Source: Pseudomonas nunensis (GTDB lineage Bacteria > Pseudomonadota > Gammaproteobacteria > Pseudomonadales > Pseudomonadaceae). From it: a stretch of 64,000 nucleotides of DNA. The notes beneath the pieces were generated by a model, which was not told where the DNA came from, searched no databases, and saw only the letters and a list, made by a program, of their open reading frames with translations. Within the stretch, counting starts at the first letter, position 1, and every line of letters begins with the position of its first letter. This document shows, piece after piece, positions 19,860 to 40,166 of the stretch. A program made the translations under genes and the position numbers. Location of the stretch: NCBI RefSeq assembly GCF_024296925.1, contig NZ_CP101125.1, forward strand, positions 2,854,501 to 2,918,500, in the 5' to 3' direction.

Positions 19860-20201
19860 ATGAGTACCGAAGATAAACGCGTTCGCGAATTTGCCTATCA
19901 AATCTGGGAGTCGGAAGGGAAACCCGAAGGCCAGGAAGAGCGCCACTGGGAGATGGCGCGCAAGCTGGCCGAAGCCGAAGCCCTGGCGCCGAAAAAATCG
20001 CCGAAAGCTGCCGGCAGCAAGGCTGCTGCGGCCAAACCGGCTGCCGCCAAGGCTGACAGCAAACTCAACGGTCAGGCCGATGGCAAGGCTGCGGCGTCCA
20101 AAGCCAAGGCCAAACCTGCTGCGGCCGCCAAAGTAACCCCGCCGGGTGAAAAGGCTCCCGAGAAAAAACCACGCGCCGCGAAAAAACCGCCAACGGTTTA
20201 A
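19860..20201 (+). CDS. DUF2934 protein with Lys/Ala-rich tail
   Basis: 113 residues. The first ~40 match the DUF2934 family: VREFAYQIWESEGKPEG, then EERHWEMARKLAEAEA. The remaining ~70 residues are low-complexity Lys/Ala/Pro (SKAAAAKPAAAKAD, PEKKPRAAKKPPTV), strongly basic and like the tails of bacterial histone-H1-like proteins such as AlgP. DUF2934 genes commonly sit in glycogen/trehalose clusters, but no function is known to me. A good GGAG lies upstream of the start. A nucleic-acid or polyanion-binding tail is inference from composition. Confidence 0.8.
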   Translation: MSTEDKRVREFAYQIWESEGKPEGQEERHWEMARKLAEAEALAPKKSPKAAGSKAAAAKPAAAKADSKLNGQADGKAAASKAKAKPAAAAKVTPPGEKAPEKKPRAAKKPPTV

Positions 20202-20291
20202 CGCTTCACGCCTTGTCCTGATTGATCTCGTGGCGAGTTCGCTCGCCACTGTGGGCGCACTCGCCCGGAATAAAGAGAACGCTGCAGTCCT

Positions 20292-20381
20292 TGTGGGAGC
20301 GGGCTTGCTCGCGAAAGCGGTGTGTCATTCAGCATCGATGTTGATTGACCCACCGCTTTCGCGAGCAAGCCCGCTCCCACA
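20292..20381. repeat. REP doublet (BIME)
   Basis: GTGGGAGCGGGCTTGCTCGC at the left and its inverted copy at the right around a ~40-nt spacer, between the DUF2934 gene and glgX. The DUF2934-glgX gap (241 bp) otherwise holds only the glgX ribosome site (GCAGGAG). Confidence 0.9.
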
Positions 20382-20442
20382 GGGTCCGCCCCTGACTGAT
20401 CCGCCACACCCGAATTCGTACCCCTATTTTGCAGGAGCATTT

Positions 20443-22602
<2,160 letters not shown>

Positions 22603-22603
22603 A

Positions 22604-23593
22604 ATGGACCTTCAGACGTTTCTGCAACAGCAATCCACGGACTGCGCCGATACACAGGCGCTAGGCCGTTGCCTGCGGGCGTTGGTGGAGGCTGGTCTCG
22701 ACCAGCTTCCGCTGCCCGGCAGTGGCGAGACGCTGGAACGCTTCCAGCGCCTGGCCGAGGTCGGTGGCCACGACCTCGGGTTGTGCAAATTGTACGAAGG
22801 GCATACCGATGCGCTGGCGATCATCCAGCAACTCGGTGGCTCACCGACTCCCGCCAGCACTTGGGGCATGTGGGCCGCCGAACCGCCGCAAGCCAAGGTT
22901 CGGGTCAGCCCTTCGGGGCACATGGTGTTGCTCAATGGACGCAAGGCTTGGTGCTCCGGCGCGGCGGTACTCAGCCATGCCTTGCTCACCGCTTGGGATG
23001 ATCAGGACCGCCAGCAACTGGTGGCGGTCGCGCTGGATCAGCCGGGGGTGAACGTCACCGCTGACGGCTGGCATGCGGTGGGCATGGGCGCCACCGGTAG
23101 CGTCGAAGTGTTGTTCGAAGGTGCGGAAGCCCAAGCCATCGGCAACCCCGGCGACTATTTGCAACGGCCAGGTTTCTGGCAAGGCGGGATCGGGATTGCC
23201 GCGTGCTGGTACGGCGCGGCGCAGAGCATCGCCGAGCGCTTGCGCCGTCACTGCGCGCAACGTCCGGAATCGCATGCCCTGGCCCATCTCGGCGCGGTGG
23301 ACAGTGCCTTGCATGCAGCGGCGCAAGTGTTGCGGGTCAGTGCCATGACCATCGACACCACACCGCTGGAAGACGCCGAACTGCTCGCCCGGCGCGCTCG
23401 TGCAGTGGTCGAGCACAGCGCCGAACTCGTCATCCAGCACGTCGGCCATGCCCTCGGTGCCGGGCCTTATTGCAAGGATCGACAGTTCGCCCGATTGATC
23501 GCTGATTTGCCGGTGTTCCTGCGCCAAAGCCACGCTGAACGGGACCTCGCCGCCCTCGGCGAACAGGTGGTCAACGGAGGGTGGACGCTATGA
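22604..23593 (+). CDS. Acyl-CoA dehydrogenase-like flavoprotein
   Basis: 329 residues, about 50 shorter than a usual acyl-CoA dehydrogenase (ACAD). The middle beta-domain segment GRKAWCSGAAVLSHALLTAW and the C-terminal four-helix part (AAQVLRVSAM..., RQSHAERDLAALGEQV) support the ACAD fold. I do not find the usual 'YEG' catalytic glutamate loop, and the N-terminal helical domain is short. An oxidoreductase or monooxygenase of the ACAD superfamily, or a redox-silent member, is therefore possible. It starts 1 bp after glgX and overlaps the PIG-L gene by ATGA. As the first member of the ACAD/PIG-L/NodS-like/GT2 cassette, its substrate is probably the lipid or sugar those genes handle (inference). 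Confidence 0.75.
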   Translation: MDLQTFLQQQSTDCADTQALGRCLRALVEAGLDQLPLPGSGETLERFQRLAEVGGHDLGLCKLYEGHTDALAIIQQLGGSPTPASTWGMWAAEPPQAKVRVSPSGHMVLLNGRKAWCSGAAVLSHALLTAWDDQDRQQLVAVALDQPGVNVTADGWHAVGMGATGSVEVLFEGAEAQAIGNPGDYLQRPGFWQGGIGIAACWYGAAQSIAERLRRHCAQRPESHALAHLGAVDSALHAAAQVLRVSAMTIDTTPLEDAELLARRARAVVEHSAELVIQHVGHALGAGPYCKDRQFARLIADLPVFLRQSHAERDLAALGEQVVNGGWTL

Positions 23594-24348
23594 AAGCCAA
23601 CCCCATCGTCGGCCAGGGCACGCCACTGCATCTGTGGCAAACCTCCCAACAACTGGCGCAATTGCCGGTGATCGACATTCTGGAGCTGGTGCCCGAAGGC
23701 TCACGCGCCGTGATCATCGCCCCGCACCCGGATGACGAAGTGCTCGGCTGCGGCGGCTTTCTGCAACTGCTCGCCGACGCTGGCCGGGCGTTGCAGCTGA
23801 TCTCGGTCACCGACGGCAGTGCCAGTCACCCCGGCTCCCGGCGCTGGCCCGTAGAACGTTTGAGCGCGGTGCGGCCGCAGGAATCCGCCGAAGCCCTGCG
23901 CCGGCTCGGTTTGCCGCTGCACAGCCTGAAATGGCTGCGCGGCGGTTTTGCCGACAGCCAGGTGGCCGCGCGGGAAGCCGAGTTGAGCGCATTCATCGAA
24001 CGTCACTTGCGACCCGACGACGTGGTCTTCACCACCTGGCGCGAGGACGGCCATTGCGACCACGAAGCCGTGGGCCGGGCCAGTGCCGACGCGGCCAATC
24101 GGGTCGGCGCGACGTTGCATGAACTGCCTGTGTGGACCTGGCACTGGGCAACCCCGGAAGACAGCTTTGTACCCTGGGAGCGCGCACGCAAGATTCTGCT
24201 CGACCCGCACCTGGTCGCCCGCAAGCGTCACGCCATCCATGCTTTCGCCAGTCAGTTAGAAGGTGATCCGCAAGTCGGTCTGCCGCCCGTGCTCGCGCCC
24301 TATGTATTGGATCGGTTGCTGCAACCGTTTGAAGTGGTGTTTCTATGA
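23590..24348 (+). CDS. PIG-L family deacetylase (catalytic residues intact)
   Basis: 252 residues, LmbE/PIG-L fold. These zinc enzymes remove N-acetyl groups from GlcNAc-type sugars or related amides. The first motif APHPDDE gives His46 and Asp49 (zinc) and Asp48 (general base). The second motif GHCDH gives His155 (catalytic) and His158 (zinc). Other family signatures are VTDGSASHPGS and RRLGLP. There is no signal peptide, so it is cytoplasmic. ATGA overlaps link it to the flavoprotein and the methyltransferase. The paralogue at 25781-26539 aligns without gaps through both motifs but has lost Asp48 and His155. Confidence 0.9.
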   Translation: MKANPIVGQGTPLHLWQTSQQLAQLPVIDILELVPEGSRAVIIAPHPDDEVLGCGGFLQLLADAGRALQLISVTDGSASHPGSRRWPVERLSAVRPQESAEALRRLGLPLHSLKWLRGGFADSQVAAREAELSAFIERHLRPDDVVFTTWREDGHCDHEAVGRASADAANRVGATLHELPVWTWHWATPEDSFVPWERARKILLDPHLVARKRHAIHAFASQLEGDPQVGLPPVLAPYVLDRLLQPFEVVFL

Positions 24349-24944
24349 GTGTCGAGGATCGTTATTTCGACGGGTTGTTCTCGGGCAACGACGACCCTTG
24401 GGCGTTTCGCCAACGCTGGTACGAACAGCGCAAACGCGCGATCACCCTCGCCGCCCTGCCCCGGCCGCATTACCGTTCTATCTTCGAACCCGGTTGCGCC
24501 AACGGAGAGCTGAGCGCCGAGCTGGCCAGCCGCTGCGACCGTCTGCTGTGTTGCGACACCGCAGCCGCCGCCGTCGCACTGGCCCGTACACGCCTGAGCC
24601 TGTTCGACCACGCCGAAGTCCGCCAAAGTCGCTTGCCGGGCGAGTGGCCCGAAGAGAAATTCGACCTGATTGTCATCAGCGAGATCGGCTACTACCTGGA
24701 CGCCGACGACCTCAAACGCCTGATCGTCCTGGCCGAACAATCGCTGACCGCCGATGGCCAACTGCTCGCCTGCCACTGGCGCCCGCCCATTGACGGCTGC
24801 CCGCTGAACGCCCGCCAGGTCCATGACCTGCTCCACGAACACTTGCACTTGCCGCGCCTGGTCCTGCATCAGGAAGCGGATTTTCTGTTGGAACTCTGGA
24901 GCCGAGAACCCCGCTCCGTGGCGGCTCTGGAGGGCTTGCGATGA
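24345..24944 (+). CDS. NodS-like SAM-dependent methyltransferase
   Basis: 199 residues, class I methyltransferase. The SAM-binding motif I is IFEPGCANGELSAELA, motif II-like CDRLLCCDTAAAAV, and FDLIVISEIGYYLD is the post-II strand with the NodS-type EIGYY. The start DRYFDGLFSGNDDPWAFR matches the NodS family (N-methyltransferases of amino sugars in Nod factors). PIG-L and NodS-like domains are also found fused in other bacteria (from memory), which supports a shared substrate: deacetylation, then methylation of the freed amine. It overlaps both neighbours by ATGA. Confidence 0.85.
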   Translation: MSVEDRYFDGLFSGNDDPWAFRQRWYEQRKRAITLAALPRPHYRSIFEPGCANGELSAELASRCDRLLCCDTAAAAVALARTRLSLFDHAEVRQSRLPGEWPEEKFDLIVISEIGYYLDADDLKRLIVLAEQSLTADGQLLACHWRPPIDGCPLNARQVHDLLHEHLHLPRLVLHQEADFLLELWSREPRSVAALEGLR

Positions 24945-25600
24945 TTGGAATCCTGATCCCGGCGCACAACGAAGAAGACTTGCTCGAACCCTGCATCCGC
25001 GCAGCCCTGCGCGCCGGTTGCCATGAGAGGCTGGAGGGCGAACCGGTGATGGTGCTGGTGGTGCTCGACAGTTGCACCGACCGCTCGGCGCAGATAGTCG
25101 CGCAATACCCGGTGCACAGCCTGGAGATCGAAGCCCGCAATGTCGGGGAAGCCCGGGCCGCCGGAGCGCGTTATCTGCTGGAACAGGGCGCGCGCTGGAT
25201 TTCCTGTTCGGATGCCGACAGCCTGGTGTCGAAAGACTGGCTGGTGGCGCAATTGGCGTTGGGCGCCGATGCGGTGTGCGGCACGGTCACGGTGGATCAG
25301 TGGCACGCCGATTTCGACGAGTCGGCACAGATTCGCTATCACCAGCATTACCAGGCACGGGACGGTCACCGTCATATCCACGGCGCAAACCTGGGCATCA
25401 GCGCCGAGGCGTATCAGCGCGCCGGCGGCTTCGAACCGCTGGCCTGCGATGAGGATGTGCAACTGGTGCGACAGCTGGAACTCTGTGGCGCGAATATCGC
25501 CTGGAGCCACCAGCCACAGGTGCTGACCAGCGCGCGCCTGGACAGCCGGGCCCGGGGTGGCTTCGGCGATTTTTTGCGGAACATGGTGCAAGTCGAGTAA
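24941..25600 (+). CDS. GT2-type glycosyltransferase
   Basis: 219 residues. The GT-A/GT2 start is IGILIPAHNEEDLLEPCI, then VLVVLDSCTDRSAQI and the metal/nucleotide-sugar motif SCSDADSLVSKDW (DxD-like). GANLGISAEAYQRAGGFEPL and CDEDVQLVRQLE provide the acceptor/ED motif. It is short, lacks membrane segments, and is soluble. It should transfer a sugar from a nucleotide sugar to the cassette's acceptor. It is the last member of the four-gene overlapping run; 180 bp follow before the second PIG-L gene. Confidence 0.85.
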   Translation: MIGILIPAHNEEDLLEPCIRAALRAGCHERLEGEPVMVLVVLDSCTDRSAQIVAQYPVHSLEIEARNVGEARAAGARYLLEQGARWISCSDADSLVSKDWLVAQLALGADAVCGTVTVDQWHADFDESAQIRYHQHYQARDGHRHIHGANLGISAEAYQRAGGFEPLACDEDVQLVRQLELCGANIAWSHQPQVLTSARLDSRARGGFGDFLRNMVQVE

Positions 25601-25780
25601 AAAAAACCGGATCAGATGCAACAGTGAGGCGACGAATACCGTTGTATGAGCAATACTCTTGTTCGCTGCAATCCAGGGTTCGGAGCGCGGCACATTGCTA
25701 TCAACCAGCCTTCACGGGTCTGCCAGGCTTGAAATCAAGCAACGCATGACTGAGGGCGAGACACAACAAGGACGTAACCC

Positions 25781-26539
25781 ATGAAACCGGTTTACCTCAA
25801 CGAAAGTACCCTGCCTTCACAGATCTGGAACAACGCGCCGCAACTCGACAATATCCCGGTGATCAACACCCAGACCCTGGTTCCCGAAGGCGCTCGCGCC
25901 GTGCTGATCGCGCCCCATCCCGGCGATGAAGTGGTGATGTGCGGCGGTTTGCTGCAGCTGTTATCCACCCTCGGCCACCCCTTGCAATTGATCTCGATTA
26001 CCGACGGCAGCGCCAGCCATCCGGGCTCGCAGCAGTGGTCGGAGAAACGCCTGAGCGTGTTCCGCCCCCAGGAAAGTGTCGAAGCTTTACGCCGTCTCGG
26101 TTTGCCGATGCACAGCCTGAAATGGATTCGTGGGGGGTTCGCCGATAACGCCTTGGCTGAGCGCGAACAACAATTGAGCCACTACATCGCGCGCTACCTG
26201 CGGCCGGGAGACGTGGTGTTCAGCACCTGGAGTGAAGACGGCATCGATGACCATGATGCGGTTGGCCGGGCTGCCGCCAGGGCGGCGGCGATTGTCGGTG
26301 TGACGTACCACGAAATCCCGGTCTGGGCCTGGCACTGGCCGATGCGCGAGCAAGGGCAGATCCCATGGCACCGGGCGCGCAAGGTCCGTCTGGACACCTG
26401 GACCATCGCGCGCAAAAGCCACGCCACCCACGCCTACGCCAGCCAGCTCGACGGCGAACCCGCCATCGGCATCGCCCCGCTACTGCCCAGGGCGCTACTG
26501 GAGCGGATCCGATTGCCGTATGAAATCGTGTTTGTCTGA
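25781..26539 (+). CDS. PIG-L paralogue lacking catalytic Asp and His (probable pseudo-deacetylase)
   Basis: 252 residues, the same length as and closely related to the PIG-L protein at 23590-24348 (no gaps needed through residue 158). The zinc ligands His46, Asp49 and His158 are kept. The general-base Asp48 is Gly (APHPGDE, codon GGC at 25922) and the catalytic His155 is Ile (GIDDH, codon ATC at 26243). In MshB-type enzymes the equivalent Asp15 and His144 are needed for hydrolysis, so this protein probably does not deacetylate. It may bind the substrate or regulate the active paralogue. It has its own 180-bp upstream region and AAGGA before the start. The frame is intact and its codon use is like its neighbours, so it is not decaying. 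Confidence 0.88.
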   Translation: MKPVYLNESTLPSQIWNNAPQLDNIPVINTQTLVPEGARAVLIAPHPGDEVVMCGGLLQLLSTLGHPLQLISITDGSASHPGSQQWSEKRLSVFRPQESVEALRRLGLPMHSLKWIRGGFADNALAEREQQLSHYIARYLRPGDVVFSTWSEDGIDDHDAVGRAAARAAAIVGVTYHEIPVWAWHWPMREQGQIPWHRARKVRLDTWTIARKSHATHAYASQLDGEPAIGIAPLLPRALLERIRLPYEIVFV

Positions 26540-26570
26540 GAGCGCTATTCTCAAAACAACGATGTACCCC

Positions 26571-26930
26571 TGTGGGAGCGAGCTTGCTCGCGATAGCGGT
26601 GTATCAGTCACTATCAATATCGACTGGCATACCGCTATCGCGAGCAAGCTCGCTCCCACAATTGACTCGCGGTGGACACAGGTTTTATGTACGACCTAAA
26701 TCCCCTGTGGGAGCGGGCTTGCTCGCGAAGGGGCCGGCACATTCACCCTCAACGCTGACTGACACTCCGTCTTCGCGAGCAAGCCCGCTCCCACAATAGA
26801 CTCGTGGTGGACACAGGTTTTATGTACGACTTCAATCCCCTGTGGGAGCGGGCTTGCTCGCGAAGGGGCCGGCACATTCACCATCAACGGTGACTGACAC
26901 ACCGTCTTCGCGAGCAAGCCCGCTCCCACA
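26571..26930. repeat. Three tandem 135-bp BIME units (six REP copies)
   Basis: REP doublets start at 26571, 26706 and 26841, exactly 135 bp apart. Each unit is REP, ~40-nt spacer, inverted REP, and a linker containing GTGGACACAGGTTTTATGTA. Units 2 and 3 are almost identical (a handful of differences). Unit 1 differs more and carries the variant core GAGCGAGCTTGCTCGCGATA. The rest of the 499-bp gap to 27039 holds only the next gene's ribosome site. Confidence 0.95.
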
Positions 26931-27038
26931 GGGGATCTGCGATGGCTGCTTTATCCACGTTATCCCGGCAATCGGGCTGAACTGACCGCTTGCGCATCAG
27001 TCGCATTACTTGAGCAGCCCTGATTTAGAGGAGCCAAC

Positions 27039-27882: not shown

Positions 27883-27977
27883 TAGCGACGCTGTAAGGCT
27901 GTTGCTACGCTGTGCCTGTCCATATCGGACCGCCGCGCAGCCAAACGCACTTTGGCCGGCACTGTGGGGAGACGAGC

Positions 27978-30677
27978 ATGATTTCTTCGACAGAACGACC
28001 AAAGTACGGGGCCTGGATTGCTTCAGCCTGCTTATGCCTTGGCGGGTCCCAAATCTCTTACGCCAGTTGCACGCTCACGCCGTCGTCCGGCAATGACTCC
28101 TTCATCTGCGACAGCGGCACCAGCGGCCCAATGACCGACCTGGCGGGCAACAACAGCCTGAGCTTTCCCGCCAGCGGCACCGGGCGCGTCAACGGCAACG
28201 TGACGTTTGGCGCCGGGATCGACTCGGTGCAGATGGACTCCGGCACCCTCGCCGGCGCACTGGATCTGGGCAACGGCAACGACCGCCTGCGCATCACGGG
28301 CGGGCAAATCACTGGCGCCGTCAGCCAGGGCAATGGCATCGATGATTTCGTCATGCTCGGCGGGACGATCCAGTCCCTCGCCCAGGGCGACGGTCGCGAC
28401 ACGTTCCTGATGACTGGCGGCACGATCACTGGCGCGTTCGAGGACGGCGACGTGGCGAGGATGACCGGCGGCAGCATCGGCCGGGTCGACATGAAGCTCG
28501 ACAACAATATTTTCGACCTGTCCGGCGGGCAGATCCTCGGCAATCTGGTCACCGGGTTCGGCACCGACACGATCATCGTCTCGGGCGGACGCATCGGCGG
28601 CAACCTCAGCGTCAGCGGCGGCAACGACAGCATTACCGTGACCGGCGGCGAGATCGTCGGCGAAATCCGCGCCAGTACCGGCGACGACAGCCTGATCTGG
28701 AATGGCGGCGGCATTATCCGCTCGGCGATCCTGATGGCCGACGGCAATGACCGCGCCACCCTGAGCAATCTGGACGAAAGCACCCTCGCCTTCACGCCGA
28801 GCCTCGACGGCGGCCCCGGCAACGATCTGCTGACCTTCGACCAAACCACAACCTCCAGCGCCGCGCGCTATATCAACTGGGAAACGGTCAACCTGAGCAA
28901 CGGCTCGCAACTCGACCTCGCCGGCAACCTGGTGCTGGGCGACAGCGCCAGTGGCACCGGCGTGTTCAACATCGACGGCAGCAGCACCCTGACTTCCGTC
29001 CACGGCAGCATCCGGCCATTCGCCGCCGGCCAGTTGGCGACGTTGAACAACGCCGGTGTGATTGACCTCACGCGCAGCAACAGCCGCACCGACGACAGCC
29101 TGACGGTGCAAGGCAACTACGCCGGCAACAACGGCCAACTGCTGTTGCAAAGTGTGATCGGCGACGACAATTCCCCCAGCGACAAACTGGTGGTCAATGA
29201 CGGCACCTTGACCGGCAGCACCGTGATCAGCGTCAGCAACCTCGGTGGCATCGGCGGCCTGACCCAACAGAACGGCATCCCGTTGGTGTTGGCCCAAGGC
29301 ACGGCCGTCAGCGAGAACAGCGCGTTTGTGCTTAGCGGTCCGATATCCGCCGGCGCCTACGATTACCGTCTGTTCAAGGGCGGCGTGACCTTGGGCTCCG
29401 AGAACAGTTGGTACCTGCGGTCGGCGGTGGTCGCACCAGCGGTCCTGAGCGTTCAAAATCCCGATCCGGCCTTGCCACCGGTCATCGTTCCACTGGCGGC
29501 GACACCCGTGGCAGCAGAGACGCCGACGATCGTGAGCATTCCCAACCCCGACCCGACTTTGCCACCGATCCTGGTTGCGGCCGCTGCGACGCCGACGGTC
29601 ATCAGCATTCCAAACCCTGACCCAGCGCTGCCACCGATTCTGGTCACGGTACCGGCGGCACCAGCCGGCAGTTCGCCGCTGCCGGTAGTGCCCGCCGCGA
29701 TACCGGGCGCGGCGCCGATCCCCTTGTACCGCCCGGAAGTCCCGACCTGGTCTGTGTTACCACCCGCCGCCGCGCAACTGACCCTGAGCGCCCTCGGCAC
29801 GTTTCATGATCGTCAGGGCGATCAGCGCCTGCTCACCGAAACCGGGGCATTCGGCGCTGGTTGGGGGCGGGTCTATGGCAAAAACTTCGACCAGACCTGG
29901 GCGGGCACGGTGACGCCACGGCTCAACGGTTCGCTGAACGGTTTTCAGGTGGGCAACGATCTGTACAGCTCGCAAACCTCGGGCGGGCAAACCCAGCGCA
30001 TCGGTTTCTTTGTCGGCCATACCCGTTTGCAGGGCGATGTCGATGGTTTCAACCAAGGTTTTGAAGGCAAGCGCGCCGGCAGCATCGAACTGGAAGGCGA
30101 CAGTTACGGTGTGTACTGGACGTTGACCGATCCCAAGGGCTGGTACGTCGATACGGTGGTCATGGGCACCCGGTTCGACGGCGACAACCGTTCCGAACGC
30201 GGCCTCAAGCTCGACAACCGTGGCCACGCCCTGACGCTCTCGGCCGAGGCCGGCTACCCGCTCGCACTGGCCGGCAACTGGGTGGTGGAGCCCCAGGCGC
30301 AAGTGATTCACCAGAAAATCTCCCTGGACAGCCAGGACGACGGCATCTCCCGGGTGTCCTTCGACTCGGACGGCGCCTGGACCGGTCGTCTCGGCGCGCG
30401 CCTCAAGGGTCGCTACGCCGTCAGTGGCCGGCCGCTGGAACCGTACTTGCGGGCCAATCTGTGGCAGACCTTTTCCGGGACCGACACGGTGACGTTCGAT
30501 CACGTCGACCGGATCGAAAGCCAACAGAAATCCTCCAGCGCCGATTTGGGTGCCGGGGTGATCCTGAGCCTCGCCTCCTCCGTCAGCGTGTACGCGAGTG
30601 CCGATTACTCCCGCAATATTGACAGCAATCAGCTGCGTGGCGTCGTCGGAAACCTCGGTATCCGGATGAGTTGGTAG
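27978..30677 (+). CDS. Classical (type Va) autotransporter
   Basis: 899 residues from ATG 27978 (GGGGAGACGAGC upstream). The signal peptide runs to about ISYA. The passenger (~30-490) has about nine imperfect 17-21-residue repeats of the form GxGxD-x5-GGxIxG (residues ~85-262), expected to form beta-helix rungs. A proline-rich linker follows (~490-595) with three copies of NPDPxLPPI. A C-terminal ~295-residue beta-barrel ends in NLGIRMSW with the aromatic last residue required for BAM assembly. The passenger is exported across the outer membrane by its own barrel. No protease triad or known adhesin domain was seen, so its role is open. The barrel is related to the next gene's. Confidence 0.9.
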   Translation: MISSTERPKYGAWIASACLCLGGSQISYASCTLTPSSGNDSFICDSGTSGPMTDLAGNNSLSFPASGTGRVNGNVTFGAGIDSVQMDSGTLAGALDLGNGNDRLRITGGQITGAVSQGNGIDDFVMLGGTIQSLAQGDGRDTFLMTGGTITGAFEDGDVARMTGGSIGRVDMKLDNNIFDLSGGQILGNLVTGFGTDTIIVSGGRIGGNLSVSGGNDSITVTGGEIVGEIRASTGDDSLIWNGGGIIRSAILMADGNDRATLSNLDESTLAFTPSLDGGPGNDLLTFDQTTTSSAARYINWETVNLSNGSQLDLAGNLVLGDSASGTGVFNIDGSSTLTSVHGSIRPFAAGQLATLNNAGVIDLTRSNSRTDDSLTVQGNYAGNNGQLLLQSVIGDDNSPSDKLVVNDGTLTGSTVISVSNLGGIGGLTQQNGIPLVLAQGTAVSENSAFVLSGPISAGAYDYRLFKGGVTLGSENSWYLRSAVVAPAVLSVQNPDPALPPVIVPLAATPVAAETPTIVSIPNPDPTLPPILVAAAATPTVISIPNPDPALPPILVTVPAAPAGSSPLPVVPAAIPGAAPIPLYRPEVPTWSVLPPAAAQLTLSALGTFHDRQGDQRLLTETGAFGAGWGRVYGKNFDQTWAGTVTPRLNGSLNGFQVGNDLYSSQTSGGQTQRIGFFVGHTRLQGDVDGFNQGFEGKRAGSIELEGDSYGVYWTLTDPKGWYVDTVVMGTRFDGDNRSERGLKLDNRGHALTLSAEAGYPLALAGNWVVEPQAQVIHQKISLDSQDDGISRVSFDSDGAWTGRLGARLKGRYAVSGRPLEPYLRANLWQTFSGTDTVTFDHVDRIESQQKSSSADLGAGVILSLASSVSVYASADYSRNIDSNQLRGVVGNLGIRMSW

Positions 30678-31000: not shown

Positions 31001-32068
31001 ATGAAAACTTCATTCACCCCACAAGAGATCAAAATCACTTTTTGCACCGTCTCGAGCACACTCCTGCTCTGTTCGTCGATGGACGTACAGGCCGGCACTG
31101 CCGAGGATGACACCGCCCCCTGGTATCGCCAGGAGATCCCGACACTGACCTTGCCGAATGTCGCCGCCACCTATCCGGGCCGCTACACCTTCAACCCGGA
31201 CCTGCGAAGTACACGCCTGACCACCGAAGACGCCGCACCTGCGGCCTGGGATCAACTCTATGGTCAGGCGTCACGCCAGGCCCAAACCGATGTACAGTCC
31301 GCAGGGTTTGCGATCCCTGGCTCGGAAGATTTCAAAGGTCCGGCCCTGCTGACCCTGCAAAGCGGCAGCGGTCATGTGCAGCGGGTCGGACTGATTGGCG
31401 GCATCAGCCAGTACCAGGGCAATAGCGATGGTCTGCTGACCAGCCGTGCGATGGCCGACCCCGGCAATGACACCCTCAACCTGCAAGGCCAAAGCCTCGG
31501 CGCCTACTGGAGCCTGACCGGGCCCCAAGGCTGGCACGTGGATTTGACCGCCAGCGGTGGCCGGGTCAACGGTTACAGCCGTGACGCCCAGGGCATGCGG
31601 CAAACCGCCGAGGGCAGCGCGATGACTGTGTCTGTCGAAGGTGGATTTCCCATCGGCCTCGGTGAGAACTGGGTAGTCGAACCCCAGGCGCAATTGATCA
31701 ATCAGCGCATCACCCTGGACACGCCGTATGCCGGCGCCAACAACGCGAGCTCCAGCGACCTGTCCTCCTGGAGCGGCCGGGTCGGTGCGCGATTGAAAGG
31801 TAGTTACGACATCAATGGCCTGCCAGTCGAACCCTATGTGCGGACCAACTTGTGGCACACGGTGTACACCGGCAATACCGTGACGCTGGATCAGGTGGAC
31901 AAGATCAGCAGTAGCCGCAATTCGTCTACGGTCGAATTGGGTTTGGGCTTGGTCGCCAGGGTTTCGCCCACGGTCAGCCTGTACGTCAGTGCCGATTACA
32001 GCAGTGACGTGGATGACAATGATTTGAATGGATTGATCGGGAGTCTGGGGGTTCGGATGCGGTGGTGA
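31001..32068 (+). CDS. Passenger-less autotransporter-type beta-barrel protein
   Basis: 355 residues. A signal peptide ends around DVQA, then only ~60 residues (including YPGRYTFNPDLRSTRL) precede an autotransporter beta-domain. The barrel shares local identity with the upstream autotransporter, e.g. NWVVEPQAQLINQRITLD against NWVVEPQAQVIHQKISLD, GRVGARLKGSYDINGLPVEP, and the same ending (GVRMRW, aromatic last residue). It therefore looks like a tandem duplicate in which the passenger was lost or never present. It may insert as a stand-alone porin-like outer-membrane barrel. There is no frameshift: the frame is clean and the start has GGTAGACCTCC upstream. Confidence 0.85.
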   Translation: MKTSFTPQEIKITFCTVSSTLLLCSSMDVQAGTAEDDTAPWYRQEIPTLTLPNVAATYPGRYTFNPDLRSTRLTTEDAAPAAWDQLYGQASRQAQTDVQSAGFAIPGSEDFKGPALLTLQSGSGHVQRVGLIGGISQYQGNSDGLLTSRAMADPGNDTLNLQGQSLGAYWSLTGPQGWHVDLTASGGRVNGYSRDAQGMRQTAEGSAMTVSVEGGFPIGLGENWVVEPQAQLINQRITLDTPYAGANNASSSDLSSWSGRVGARLKGSYDINGLPVEPYVRTNLWHTVYTGNTVTLDQVDKISSSRNSSTVELGLGLVARVSPTVSLYVSADYSSDVDDNDLNGLIGSLGVRMRW

Positions 32069-32200: not shown

Positions 32201-37776
<5,576 letters not shown>

Positions 37777-37946: not shown

Positions 37947-39941
37947 CTAGACGGTAATCCGCCAAATCCCGAACGGCTGGTGGGCCGGGTCGATGCGCAT
38001 GGACTGGTACTTGCCGTACCACGTCCAGCGATGGCCGCTCATCAAGTCTTCGCCCTGGGTTTGGGCATCGTCGGGCAAGCCCATTTCCCACAATGGCAGT
38101 TCGAAATTGGCTTCCTGGACGTTGTTCGGGTCCAGGCTGACGGCCACCAGAATGAAGTTGCTGCCATCGGCGCTGCGCTTGCCGAAATACAGGATGTTGT
38201 CGTTCCAGGCGTTGTAGATCTTCAGCCCCAGGTGCGTATGCAGCGCCGGGTTCTGCCGGCGGATGCGGTTGAGCTGGGCGATCTCGGCAATGATGTTGCC
38301 CGGCGCATTGAAGTCCCGAGGGCGGATCTCGTACTTCTCGGAGTTGAGGTATTCCTCTTTGCCCGGGATCGGCGCGGCTTCGCAGAGTTCGAAGCCCGAA
38401 TACATACCCCACAGGCCGGAGCCCATGGTCGCCAGTGCCGCGCGAATCAGAAAACCGGCGCGCCCGGATTCGTGCAAGAACGCCGGGTTGATGTCCGGGG
38501 TATTCACGAAGAAGTTCGGCCGGAAACACTCACTCCAGGGCGACTCATTGAGTTCGCTGAAGTAGGTCGCCAACTCCGCCTTGGTGTTGCGCCAAGTGAA
38601 GTAGGTGTAGCTCTGGGAGTAACCGACCTTGCCGAGGCGCGCCATCATCGCCGGGGTGGTAAAAGCTTCAGCGAGGAAGATCACTTCCGGGTGCAGCGCC
38701 CGCACATCGGCGATCAGCCATTGCCAGAACGGCAGCGGCTTGGTGTGCGGATTGTCGACGCGAAAGATCTTCACGCCCTCCTCGACCCAACCGACCACGA
38801 TGTCGCGCAACTCTACCCAGAGGCTGGGGATCGCGTCGGCGGCGTAGAAGTCGACGTTAACAATGTCCTGGTATTTCTTCGGCGGGTTCTCGGCGTATTT
38901 GATCGTGCCGTCGGGACGCCAATTAAACCAGCCTGGATGCTGCTGCAGCCATGGGTGATCCTGGGAACACTGGATCGCGAAGTCGAGGGCGATTTCCAAC
39001 CCATGGTCCGCCGCTGCAACCACCAGTCTGCGGAAGTCTTCGCGAGTACCGAGCTCGGAGTGAATCGCCTCGTGGCCACCTTCGGCACTACCGATGGCGT
39101 AAGGGCTGCCCGGATCATTAGGGCCGGCAGTCAGCGAGTTGTTCGGGCCTTTGCGATAGCTGCGACCGATCGGGTGGATCGGCGGGAAGTACAGCACGTC
39201 AAAACCCATGTCCTGGATCATCGGCAGCCGCGAGTGCACATCGTTGAACGTGCCGTGACGTGCCGGATCGTCGGTGATCGAGCGTGGGAACAACTCGTAC
39301 CAACTGGCGAACTGGGCGATTTCCCGTTCAGCATCCAGCGGGAATTCCTGGCTCAGGCTCAGGTAGGCCCGGTGATCGGCCTCGGCCATCAGGTCGGCGC
39401 TACGCTGGTGCAAGAACAACGCGACCTGCTCGGTTTCGAGCAGCGCGGACAATTCATGGTGCAGTCCGGCGAGTTGTTCGCTGAGTTGCCCATCGCTGCG
39501 CTCGGCGGCTTGCTGGACCATGGTCCGGCCTTCCTGCAATTCCAGGCTCACCGGAACGCGGGCGGTGTGCTTCTTTTCCAGCTCATAACAGAAGCTGGCG
39601 AACTGATCGATCCAGGCTTCAATGCAGAACACATGGCGGCCCTGGCGCTCGACTCGGAAGCGGCCCTCCCAGCCGTTGTTGCCCAGGTCGGCCATGGTTT
39701 CGCTGTGCCAGGACTCTTCGCCCTCGCCACGCCAGCGGATGCGCGCGGCCAGTTTGTCGTGACCGTCGGCAAACACCTTTCCGGTGACCAGCACGTCCTG
39801 ACCCACCACGGCTTTGACGGCAAACAGCCCGCCATCGAGGGTCGGCATCACGTTTTCAATCGCAATGCGCGGCAGCAATAAAGCCTGCGACAGCGGCATG
39901 TGCGGGTTGTAACTGAGTTCGGTCGGTTTTTCAGCGATCAT
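37947..39941 (-). CDS. glgE: Alpha-1,4-glucan:maltose-1-phosphate maltosyltransferase GlgE
   Basis: 664 residues, GH13 subfamily 3. It extends alpha-1,4-glucan two glucoses at a time from maltose-1-phosphate. Signatures: an N-terminal beta domain with MPTLDGGLFAVKAVVGQ, PIHPIGRSYRKGPNN, nucleophile Asp in KIFRVDNPHTKPLPFW, acid/base Glu in VIFLAEAFTTPAMM, YFTWRNTKAEL and FVNTPDINPAFL. The start at 39941 (MIAEKPTELSYN) has AAAGGAGAG upstream; the frame stays open to 40133, but there is no ribosome site there and the extra residues are not GlgE-like. It is first in the operon glgE-treS-glgB, behind an AlgU-like promoter. Confidence 0.96.
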   Translation of the reverse strand: MIAEKPTELSYNPHMPLSQALLLPRIAIENVMPTLDGGLFAVKAVVGQDVLVTGKVFADGHDKLAARIRWRGEGEESWHSETMADLGNNGWEGRFRVERQGRHVFCIEAWIDQFASFCYELEKKHTARVPVSLELQEGRTMVQQAAERSDGQLSEQLAGLHHELSALLETEQVALFLHQRSADLMAEADHRAYLSLSQEFPLDAEREIAQFASWYELFPRSITDDPARHGTFNDVHSRLPMIQDMGFDVLYFPPIHPIGRSYRKGPNNSLTAGPNDPGSPYAIGSAEGGHEAIHSELGTREDFRRLVVAAADHGLEIALDFAIQCSQDHPWLQQHPGWFNWRPDGTIKYAENPPKKYQDIVNVDFYAADAIPSLWVELRDIVVGWVEEGVKIFRVDNPHTKPLPFWQWLIADVRALHPEVIFLAEAFTTPAMMARLGKVGYSQSYTYFTWRNTKAELATYFSELNESPWSECFRPNFFVNTPDINPAFLHESGRAGFLIRAALATMGSGLWGMYSGFELCEAAPIPGKEEYLNSEKYEIRPRDFNAPGNIIAEIAQLNRIRRQNPALHTHLGLKIYNAWNDNILYFGKRSADGSNFILVAVSLDPNNVQEANFELPLWEMGLPDDAQTQGEDLMSGHRWTWYGKYQSMRIDPAHQPFGIWRITV

Positions 39942-40030
39942 CGAGCATCTCTCCTTTACGCCCCAAGGACGCTCTTTTGCTTGATGTCCATCCACATGGG
40001 GCGTTCTGCCCGGAATGAACTCACTTAGGT

Positions 40031-40058
40031 TCCGAGCGACAGGCGCCGGTAAAAGTTC
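40031..40058 (-). promoter_or_regulatory. Candidate AlgU (sigma-22) promoter for glgE-treS-glgB
   Basis: On the minus strand, GAACTT (40058-40053), 17 bp, then TCGGA (40035-40031). AlgU promoters follow GAACTT-N16/17-TCtgA, so this is a full -35 with 3 of 5 -10 positions including TC and A. The start of transcription would be near 40024, giving a leader of about 80 nt. Osmotic/AlgU control of trehalose and glucan genes is known in pseudomonads, which agrees. Confidence 0.5.
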
Positions 40059-40166
40059 ACGGGGATTTGCCTGAGTATTAGCGGGAATCAAATCCTGTAC
40101 GCGGTGGTCAACAAACTTAAGAAACTTAAGCACGAGTTACGCCATGTGCCACAAGGAGGCTTCACG

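Follow-up and report, generated by a model that had tools for sequence, protein, structure and literature searches.

A conserved four-gene cassette behind glgX in Pseudomonas nunensis and its possible role in a stress-associated amino-sugar pathway

The stretch of DNA analyzed here, referred to as the window, comprises 64,000 nucleotides of Pseudomonas nunensis (contig NZ_CP101125.1), and the genome to which it belongs is 7.33 Mb in size and forms a single contig. Directly behind glgX (20446-22602, + strand) the window contains a cassette of four genes on the same strand, encoding a flavoprotein with the fold of the acyl-CoA dehydrogenases (ACAD-like protein; 22604-23593; 329 aa), a PIG-L de-N-acetylase (PIGL1; 23590-24348; 252 aa), a NodS-like S-adenosylmethionine (SAM)-dependent methyltransferase (24345-24944; 199 aa) and a family 2 glycosyltransferase (GT2) consisting of a single GT-A domain (24941-25600; 219 aa). 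The stop of glgX at 22602 and the start of the ACAD-like gene are 1 bp apart, and ATGA start/stop overlaps are present at the three junctions ACAD/PIG-L, PIG-L/NodS-like and NodS-like/GT2. A gene for a PIG-L paralogue (PIGL2; 25781-26539, + strand) starts 180 bp downstream of the GT2 end. This layout was already given in the initial annotation, and the coordinates and the Pfam matches agree with it: PIG-L was matched with 92.6 bits in PIGL1 and 77.8 bits in PIGL2, NodS with 46.8 bits (cut-off 24), Glycos_transf_2 with 56.3 bits and the ACAD middle domain with 31.8 bits, which is below the cut-off of 33.3. Together, Pfam and NCBIfam broadly bear out the names ACAD-like, PIG-L, NodS-like and GT2. 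The nearest named ACAD proteins are from Pseudomonas and show 98% identity.

The four genes almost certainly constitute a conserved functional unit. A clear ACAD orthologue, defined by an E value below 1e-100, is present in 22 of 36 Pseudomonas genomes including that of the window and in none of the 21 genomes sampled from the rest of the order. Co-occurrence of the cassette genes elsewhere had been set beforehand as a check, and it was found: in 15 of the 21 other Pseudomonas carriers the ACAD gene lies directly behind glgX, with the order ACAD, PIG-L, NodS-like kept at all 15 loci and a GT2 match next at 13 of them. Because so many carriers share this position, the gene order of glgX and cassette is not due to chance. 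The shared order, together with the fusion of PIG-L and methyltransferase into a single protein in Microbacterium (L162) and in genome G445 (L225), upholds the view that the genes belong together. The L162 protein has 1681 relatives, and both Pfam domains are also listed for the best 120 of them, although this is uninformative on the frequency of the fusion, the query itself being a fusion.

Beyond Pseudomonas, an ACAD profile matched 34 of 398 Pseudomonadota genomes in 23 of 212 genera, with one gene in each genome (in one case split in two pieces), and a methyltransferase of the cassette type adjoins the ACAD gene at 32 of the 33 loci outside the window's own genome. A PIG-L protein scoring above 70 bits is encoded in 33 of 34 ACAD-positive genomes (33 of the profile set without the window's own genome, plus G003) compared to 3 of 35 ACAD-negative ones, of which 12 encode some PIG-L above the family cut-off. 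Fisher's exact test yields P = 5e-15, uncorrected for relatedness and for how the line was set; the 70-bit line was chosen once the scores were known, and the ACAD-negative genomes, unlike the positives, all come from the window's own order. In 28 of the 34 genomes the PIG-L and ACAD genes are no more than 1 kb apart; in G003, G084, G191, G204 and G308 a strong copy is found further away, and G375 encodes only a weak PIG-L. Moreover, plasmid records of Acinetobacter, Cupriavidus, Pandoraea, Streptomyces, Kitasatospora, Deinococcus, Nostoc, Sulfitobacter and others contain ACAD and methyltransferase matches that are close together as judged from the match coordinates, extending the range to Actinomycetota, Deinococcota and one cyanobacterium. 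Two Deinococcus records encode ACAD-like proteins that are extended at the N-terminus by a further domain of about 390 residues (L086 2193-3450; N-terminal part of L081 6519-9032), with 68-69% identity between the two. For this domain no Pfam match and no solved relative were found, and its single NCBIfam match reaches 14.8 bits, which is far under the cut-off. Divergent loci (L217, L082, L214 and others) show extra GT4 and GT2 genes near the ACAD gene, which suggests a longer sugar chain there.

Within Pseudomonas the cassette has two main homes, either behind glgX or beside ligD/ku. In four of the six carriers with the ACAD gene away from glgX, the cassette adjoins a protein that reads as LigD, in three of these together with Ku; these names were read from the N-termini, and both were confirmed by Pfam for locus L077. 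One of the six has no adjoining PIG-L and in another the GT2 gene lies apart. In a scan of named genomes, covering the best 80 loci by similarity, LigD adjoins the cassette at 35 loci, and at 28 of them Ku lies on its other side. A further 27 loci are of the glgX type, with glgX visible at 26 and the remaining one located at a contig edge, and the last 18 have a different or unresolved context. The synteny markers "ORF32" and "ORF33" are antisense frames of glgB and hence mark glgB. Many of the names at LigD-type loci belong to the P. putida group. A tree of 116 ACAD proteins places the glgX-linked Pseudomonas copies on a branch of their own (support 91) and the LigD-linked copies together with those of other context on a neighboring one (support 98); with midpoint rooting, the pair of branches has support 80. 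This is a quick tree with long branches. An old presence of the cassette with subsequent relocation and loss fits this tree and genome G025, in which the glgX site is empty and the cassette sits at the ligD locus. The initial annotation had proposed an insertion between the glucan genes. Some Pseudomonas glgX loci without the cassette are in line with this proposal, but the tree and G025 speak against a simple local event, and a recent insertion at glgX was rejected as the full account. At locus L202, which belongs to a different genus in the family of Pseudomonas, Ku, LigD and the cassette are followed on the opposite strand by an EEP gene, GlgX, TreY and MalQ, an arrangement that may resemble the state before the split between glgX and ligD homes. 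The PIGL2 gene, which many Pseudomonas retain behind glgX, is separate from the cassette because it is present there in seven genomes without a cassette.

Some features of the surroundings in the window should be added. The start of glgX is approximate and was placed by homology: the longest open reading frame begins at 20146, but the true start is probably near 20446 because the matches of 11 of 13 strong relatives begin at residue 87-114. The longest frame opens within the repeat region. Inverted repeat pairs on TGTGGGAGCG..GCTTGCTCGCGA (20284-20389 and 26567-26971), which are REP-like, flank glgX and the cassette on both sides. On the far side lies a second glucan operon on the - strand with glgB (32201-34432), treS (34429-37776) and glgE (37947-40133).

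The neighborhood of the cassette suggests that it is quite likely associated with stress. Outside Pseudomonas, a search up to 10 kb from the ACAD gene found Ku at two, the large-subunit catalase KatE at four and OtsA at three places, compared to 0.10, 0.16 and 0.14 expected places, respectively. At least one of the three is present in this distance in 8 of 29 non-Pseudomonas genomes against 0.4 expected, and the 21 others have none. The control RecA was found at no place within 10 kb in these 29 genomes (0.14 expected). The expectation relies on rounded genome sizes and uniform placement and treats the genomes as independent, which is its weak point; the count omits five Pseudomonas genomes, four catalase matches below the cut-off and weak secondary matches of the RecA family. 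The four catalase matches near the cassette have open frames of 715-792 aa, compared to about 200 aa for some other catalase-family matches. In the window's own genome, Ku is encoded about 104 kb from the cassette. Furthermore, in four of nine annotated plasmid regions, which were selected for diversity, catalase, OtsAB or Ku/LigD are found near the cassette: catalase in Acinetobacter, Novosphingobium and Sulfitobacter, trehalose-6-phosphate synthase in Acinetobacter, and Ku in Novosphingobium and Bradyrhizobium. The regions of Pandoraea, Kitasatospora, Methylobacterium and both Deinococcus show no catalase, trehalose-6-phosphate synthase or Ku nearby; the Methylobacterium region and one of the Deinococcus regions have an ACAD match without PIG-L and methyltransferase. 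Manganese catalase, DUF892 and DUF421 proteins recur at a few cassette loci.

In P. aeruginosa, trehalose supports osmotic tolerance and alpha-glucan desiccation tolerance (PMC8084333). In a P. fluorescens strain (tags HZ99), the genes from glgA to glgX and glgB/treS are reduced in an rpoS mutant, and the tags leave space for two genes between glgX and glgB; the available part of that article does not mention cassette genes (PMC6372562). On this basis, shared regulation of the cassette with the glg/tre genes is inferred.

Acyl-CoA dehydrogenases use a catalytic glutamate, located either at the YEG site or in helix G, and contact the flavin adenine dinucleotide through the motif R..FG. Both features are missing in the ACAD-like protein. 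Glutamate is absent at both catalytic sites in all 12 cassette proteins compared, which carry [LI]RQ opposite YEG/WEG, with a one-residue gap nearby, and a glycine at the helix-G site, i.e., an invariant Arg-Gln and a Gly as the aligned residues. R..FG is found in none of the 12 compared to all six dehydrogenase-type proteins of the window's own genome, a set from which two loci without R..FG (L242, L249) had been excluded. Five of the six carry glutamate at one site and the sixth (L237) aspartate. The six were drawn from 11 of 25 loci that passed a length filter, from which the cassette gene itself (L250) and two loci judged to be wrong frames (L252, L254) were also excluded. E312, located four residues after Q308, is missing from the four cassette proteins that diverge most. 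A functional acyl-CoA dehydrogenase was rejected because the catalytic glutamate and R..FG are lacking in all 12, and the flavoprotein is, judged by these residues, probably no such enzyme.

The predicted structure of the protein belongs to the ACAD fold with high confidence. This fold is shared by the flavin N-oxygenases KijD3, DnmZ and ORF36 and the sulfur monooxygenases DszC and MsuC, and the fold comparison ties dehydrogenases with monooxygenases and does not separate them. The only NCBIfam match is SfnB with 42.7 bits (cut-off 430.9). Compared to solved structures, the ACAD profile scores highest for DszC (68.6 bits), MsuC (62.8 bits) and KijD3 (55.4 bits), with TdsC also among the best, ahead of most dehydrogenase-named chains with at most 47.5 bits; the N-oxygenases DnmZ and ORF36, however, score under several dehydrogenases. 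MsuC is a sulfinate monooxygenase and KijD3 an amino-sugar N-oxygenase. The cassette protein has DszC, MsuC and KijD3 as its top sequence matches, and the comparison of the glutamate and R..FG positions sets it apart from the dehydrogenases; with 329 aa it is shorter than the listed chains (395-439 aa) and shares 16-19% identity with them. The flavoprotein is possibly a monooxygenase as far as the profile scores go, and mono-oxygenation as its reaction is a serious candidate that falls just short of an even chance, while N-oxidation in particular is rather unlikely. No flavin reductase partner was recognized in a partial look at the cassette neighbors.

The PIG-L de-N-acetylases depend on the motifs PHPDDE and HxDH. 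PHPDDE is intact in all 43 PIGL1-like and all 44 putida-type copies, and the HxDH histidine is present in all 43 and in 42 of the 44, with two unread. The PIGL1 profile is closest to the TT1542, chitobiose, BshB and MshB deacetylases. In contrast to PIGL1, PIGL2 carries glycine in place of the general-base aspartate (PHPGDE) in 31 of 32 copies (one unread) and no HxDH histidine in any of the 26 of 32 copies that were readable at this position, the window's copy included, while the presumed metal ligands are kept. As the catalytic aspartate and histidine are lost, PIGL2 is, by its sequence, probably not a deacetylase and should not be counted as a second one; its conservation suggests a non-catalytic or a different role. 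The methyltransferase profile matches PDB 4isc, a solved close relative labeled merely "Methyltransferase", with 241 bits, followed by NodS with 103 bits and the next structure with 51.5 bits. The protein scores above the cut-off of the broader Pfam NodS model given above but below that of the NCBIfam NodS equivalog (55.3 bits, cut-off 300). The parallel to Nod factor synthesis drawn initially is retained in so far as NodS is the nearest solved protein after 4isc; it is weak since the equivalog cut-off is missed and no acyl-transfer gene is present. Glycosyltransferases of the GT2/GT-A type are characterized by DxD-type and ED motifs, and in the cassette GT2, for which the fold comparison found the GT-A fold, D91, D93, E171 and D172 are invariant in 25 rows; a fold search for a clue to the acceptor returned only general GT-A matches. 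A role in anti-phage defense was rejected: among six proteins only the methyltransferase matched PADLOC (mad2, 54.3 bits), probably via the shared methyltransferase fold.

Taken together, a stress-associated pathway leading to a small, soluble, N-methylated and perhaps oxidized amino-sugar glycoside is tentatively favored. The cassette would probably be co-expressed here with the trehalose and alpha-glucan genes in a stress or stationary-phase program. The GT2 enzyme would transfer a sugar, PIGL1 would strip an N-acetyl group and thereby free the amine, the NodS-like enzyme would methylate the freed amine, and the ACAD-fold flavoprotein, acting as flavin monooxygenase, would oxidize the amine or a neighboring position, resulting in a small, soluble and probably intracellular amino-sugar glycoside. 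An amino-sugar substrate is reasonably probable, and for N-methylation by the NodS-like enzyme the chances are about equal either way. We infer this order of steps, the solubility of the product and a protective function. A more far-reaching version is speculative and improbable as a whole: an N-methylated, N-oxidized (hydroxylamine or nitrone) amino-sugar glycoside might, in bacteria of three or more phyla, serve dried or resting cells as radical scavenger alongside trehalose, catalase and DNA-end joining, and might in Pseudomonas be bound or regulated by the non-catalytic PIG-L.

Three other explanations have to be weighed. The cassette might encode a secondary-metabolite or detoxification pathway that neighbors stress genes only by clustering in accessory islands, without shared regulation. 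Its uneven occurrence (matches in 34 of 398 genomes; 14 of 36 Pseudomonas without an orthologue) and its carriage on plasmids agree with this, but the 1 bp spacing to glgX, an identical placement in 15 of the 21 further Pseudomonas carriers and the association with different stress genes in different families make it unlikely. Alternatively, the enzymes might modify trehalose, maltodextrin or alpha-glucan itself, e.g., to an aminated or capped trehalose derivative, since the cassette adjoins TreYZ/GlgX (also at locus L218) and OtsAB, with TreS and GlgE on its far side here; this is still less likely, as no glg/tre marker lies in the sequence covered at 34 of the 35 LigD-type loci, catalase and Ku are about as frequent neighbors as OtsA, and Pfam reveals no aminotransferase in the cassette. 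Least likely is a lipochito-oligosaccharide-like or modified amino-sugar lipid formed by deacetylation, N-methylation and glycosylation and possibly surface-exposed or a signal, for which the NodS similarity, the presence of PIG-L and GT2 and two downstream autotransporter-type (surface) proteins encoded between the cassette and glgB (27912-30677; 31001-32068) can be adduced, but against which stand the methyltransferase score (55 bits, where the NodS cut-off is 300), the lack of a NodA match in 13 genomes in a search in which no control genome matched either, the stress genes as the markers tested nearby outside Pseudomonas, and the absence of any Pfam family for acyl transfer or export from the cassette proteins, which makes a lipid signal less likely.

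If the stress-associated glycoside pathway holds true, bacteria of several phyla have in common a so far undescribed stress metabolite whose genes lie beside those for trehalose, catalase and end joining, and scattered annotations as "acyl-CoA dehydrogenase", "PIG-L" and "SAM methyltransferase" unite in one testable pathway. It would also suggest what the solved methyltransferase 4isc does and be relevant to survival of desiccation and stationary phase. Literature searches, mostly without subscription journals, found no paper describing the gene set, and three articles covering the glg/tre genes do not mention the cassette in their available parts (PMC8084333, PMC8982409, PMC6372562). While the enzyme families are known, their combination and context appear not to have been described yet.

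The cassette can also be compared to known gene sets. At the Pseudomonas trehalose/alpha-glucan (glg/tre) loci it holds the same position, directly behind glgX. Like the Nod factor pathway (NodS, NodB, NodC, NodA), it unites a deacetylase and a GT2 enzyme with a methyltransferase of the NodS kind; in contrast, the Nod factor deacetylase NodB belongs to a family other than PIG-L, a flavoprotein is not part of that pathway, and the cassette lacks an acyltransferase. The synthesis of mycothiol and bacillithiol by MshA/MshB and BshA/BshB likewise combines a glycosyltransferase with a PIG-L deacetylase, leading to small soluble glucosamine glycosides. PIGL1 resembles MshB and BshB1, for the latter with 50.7 bits and thus below the NCBIfam cut-off of 182.5, and where these pathways employ a cysteine ligase, the cassette encodes a methyltransferase and a flavoprotein.

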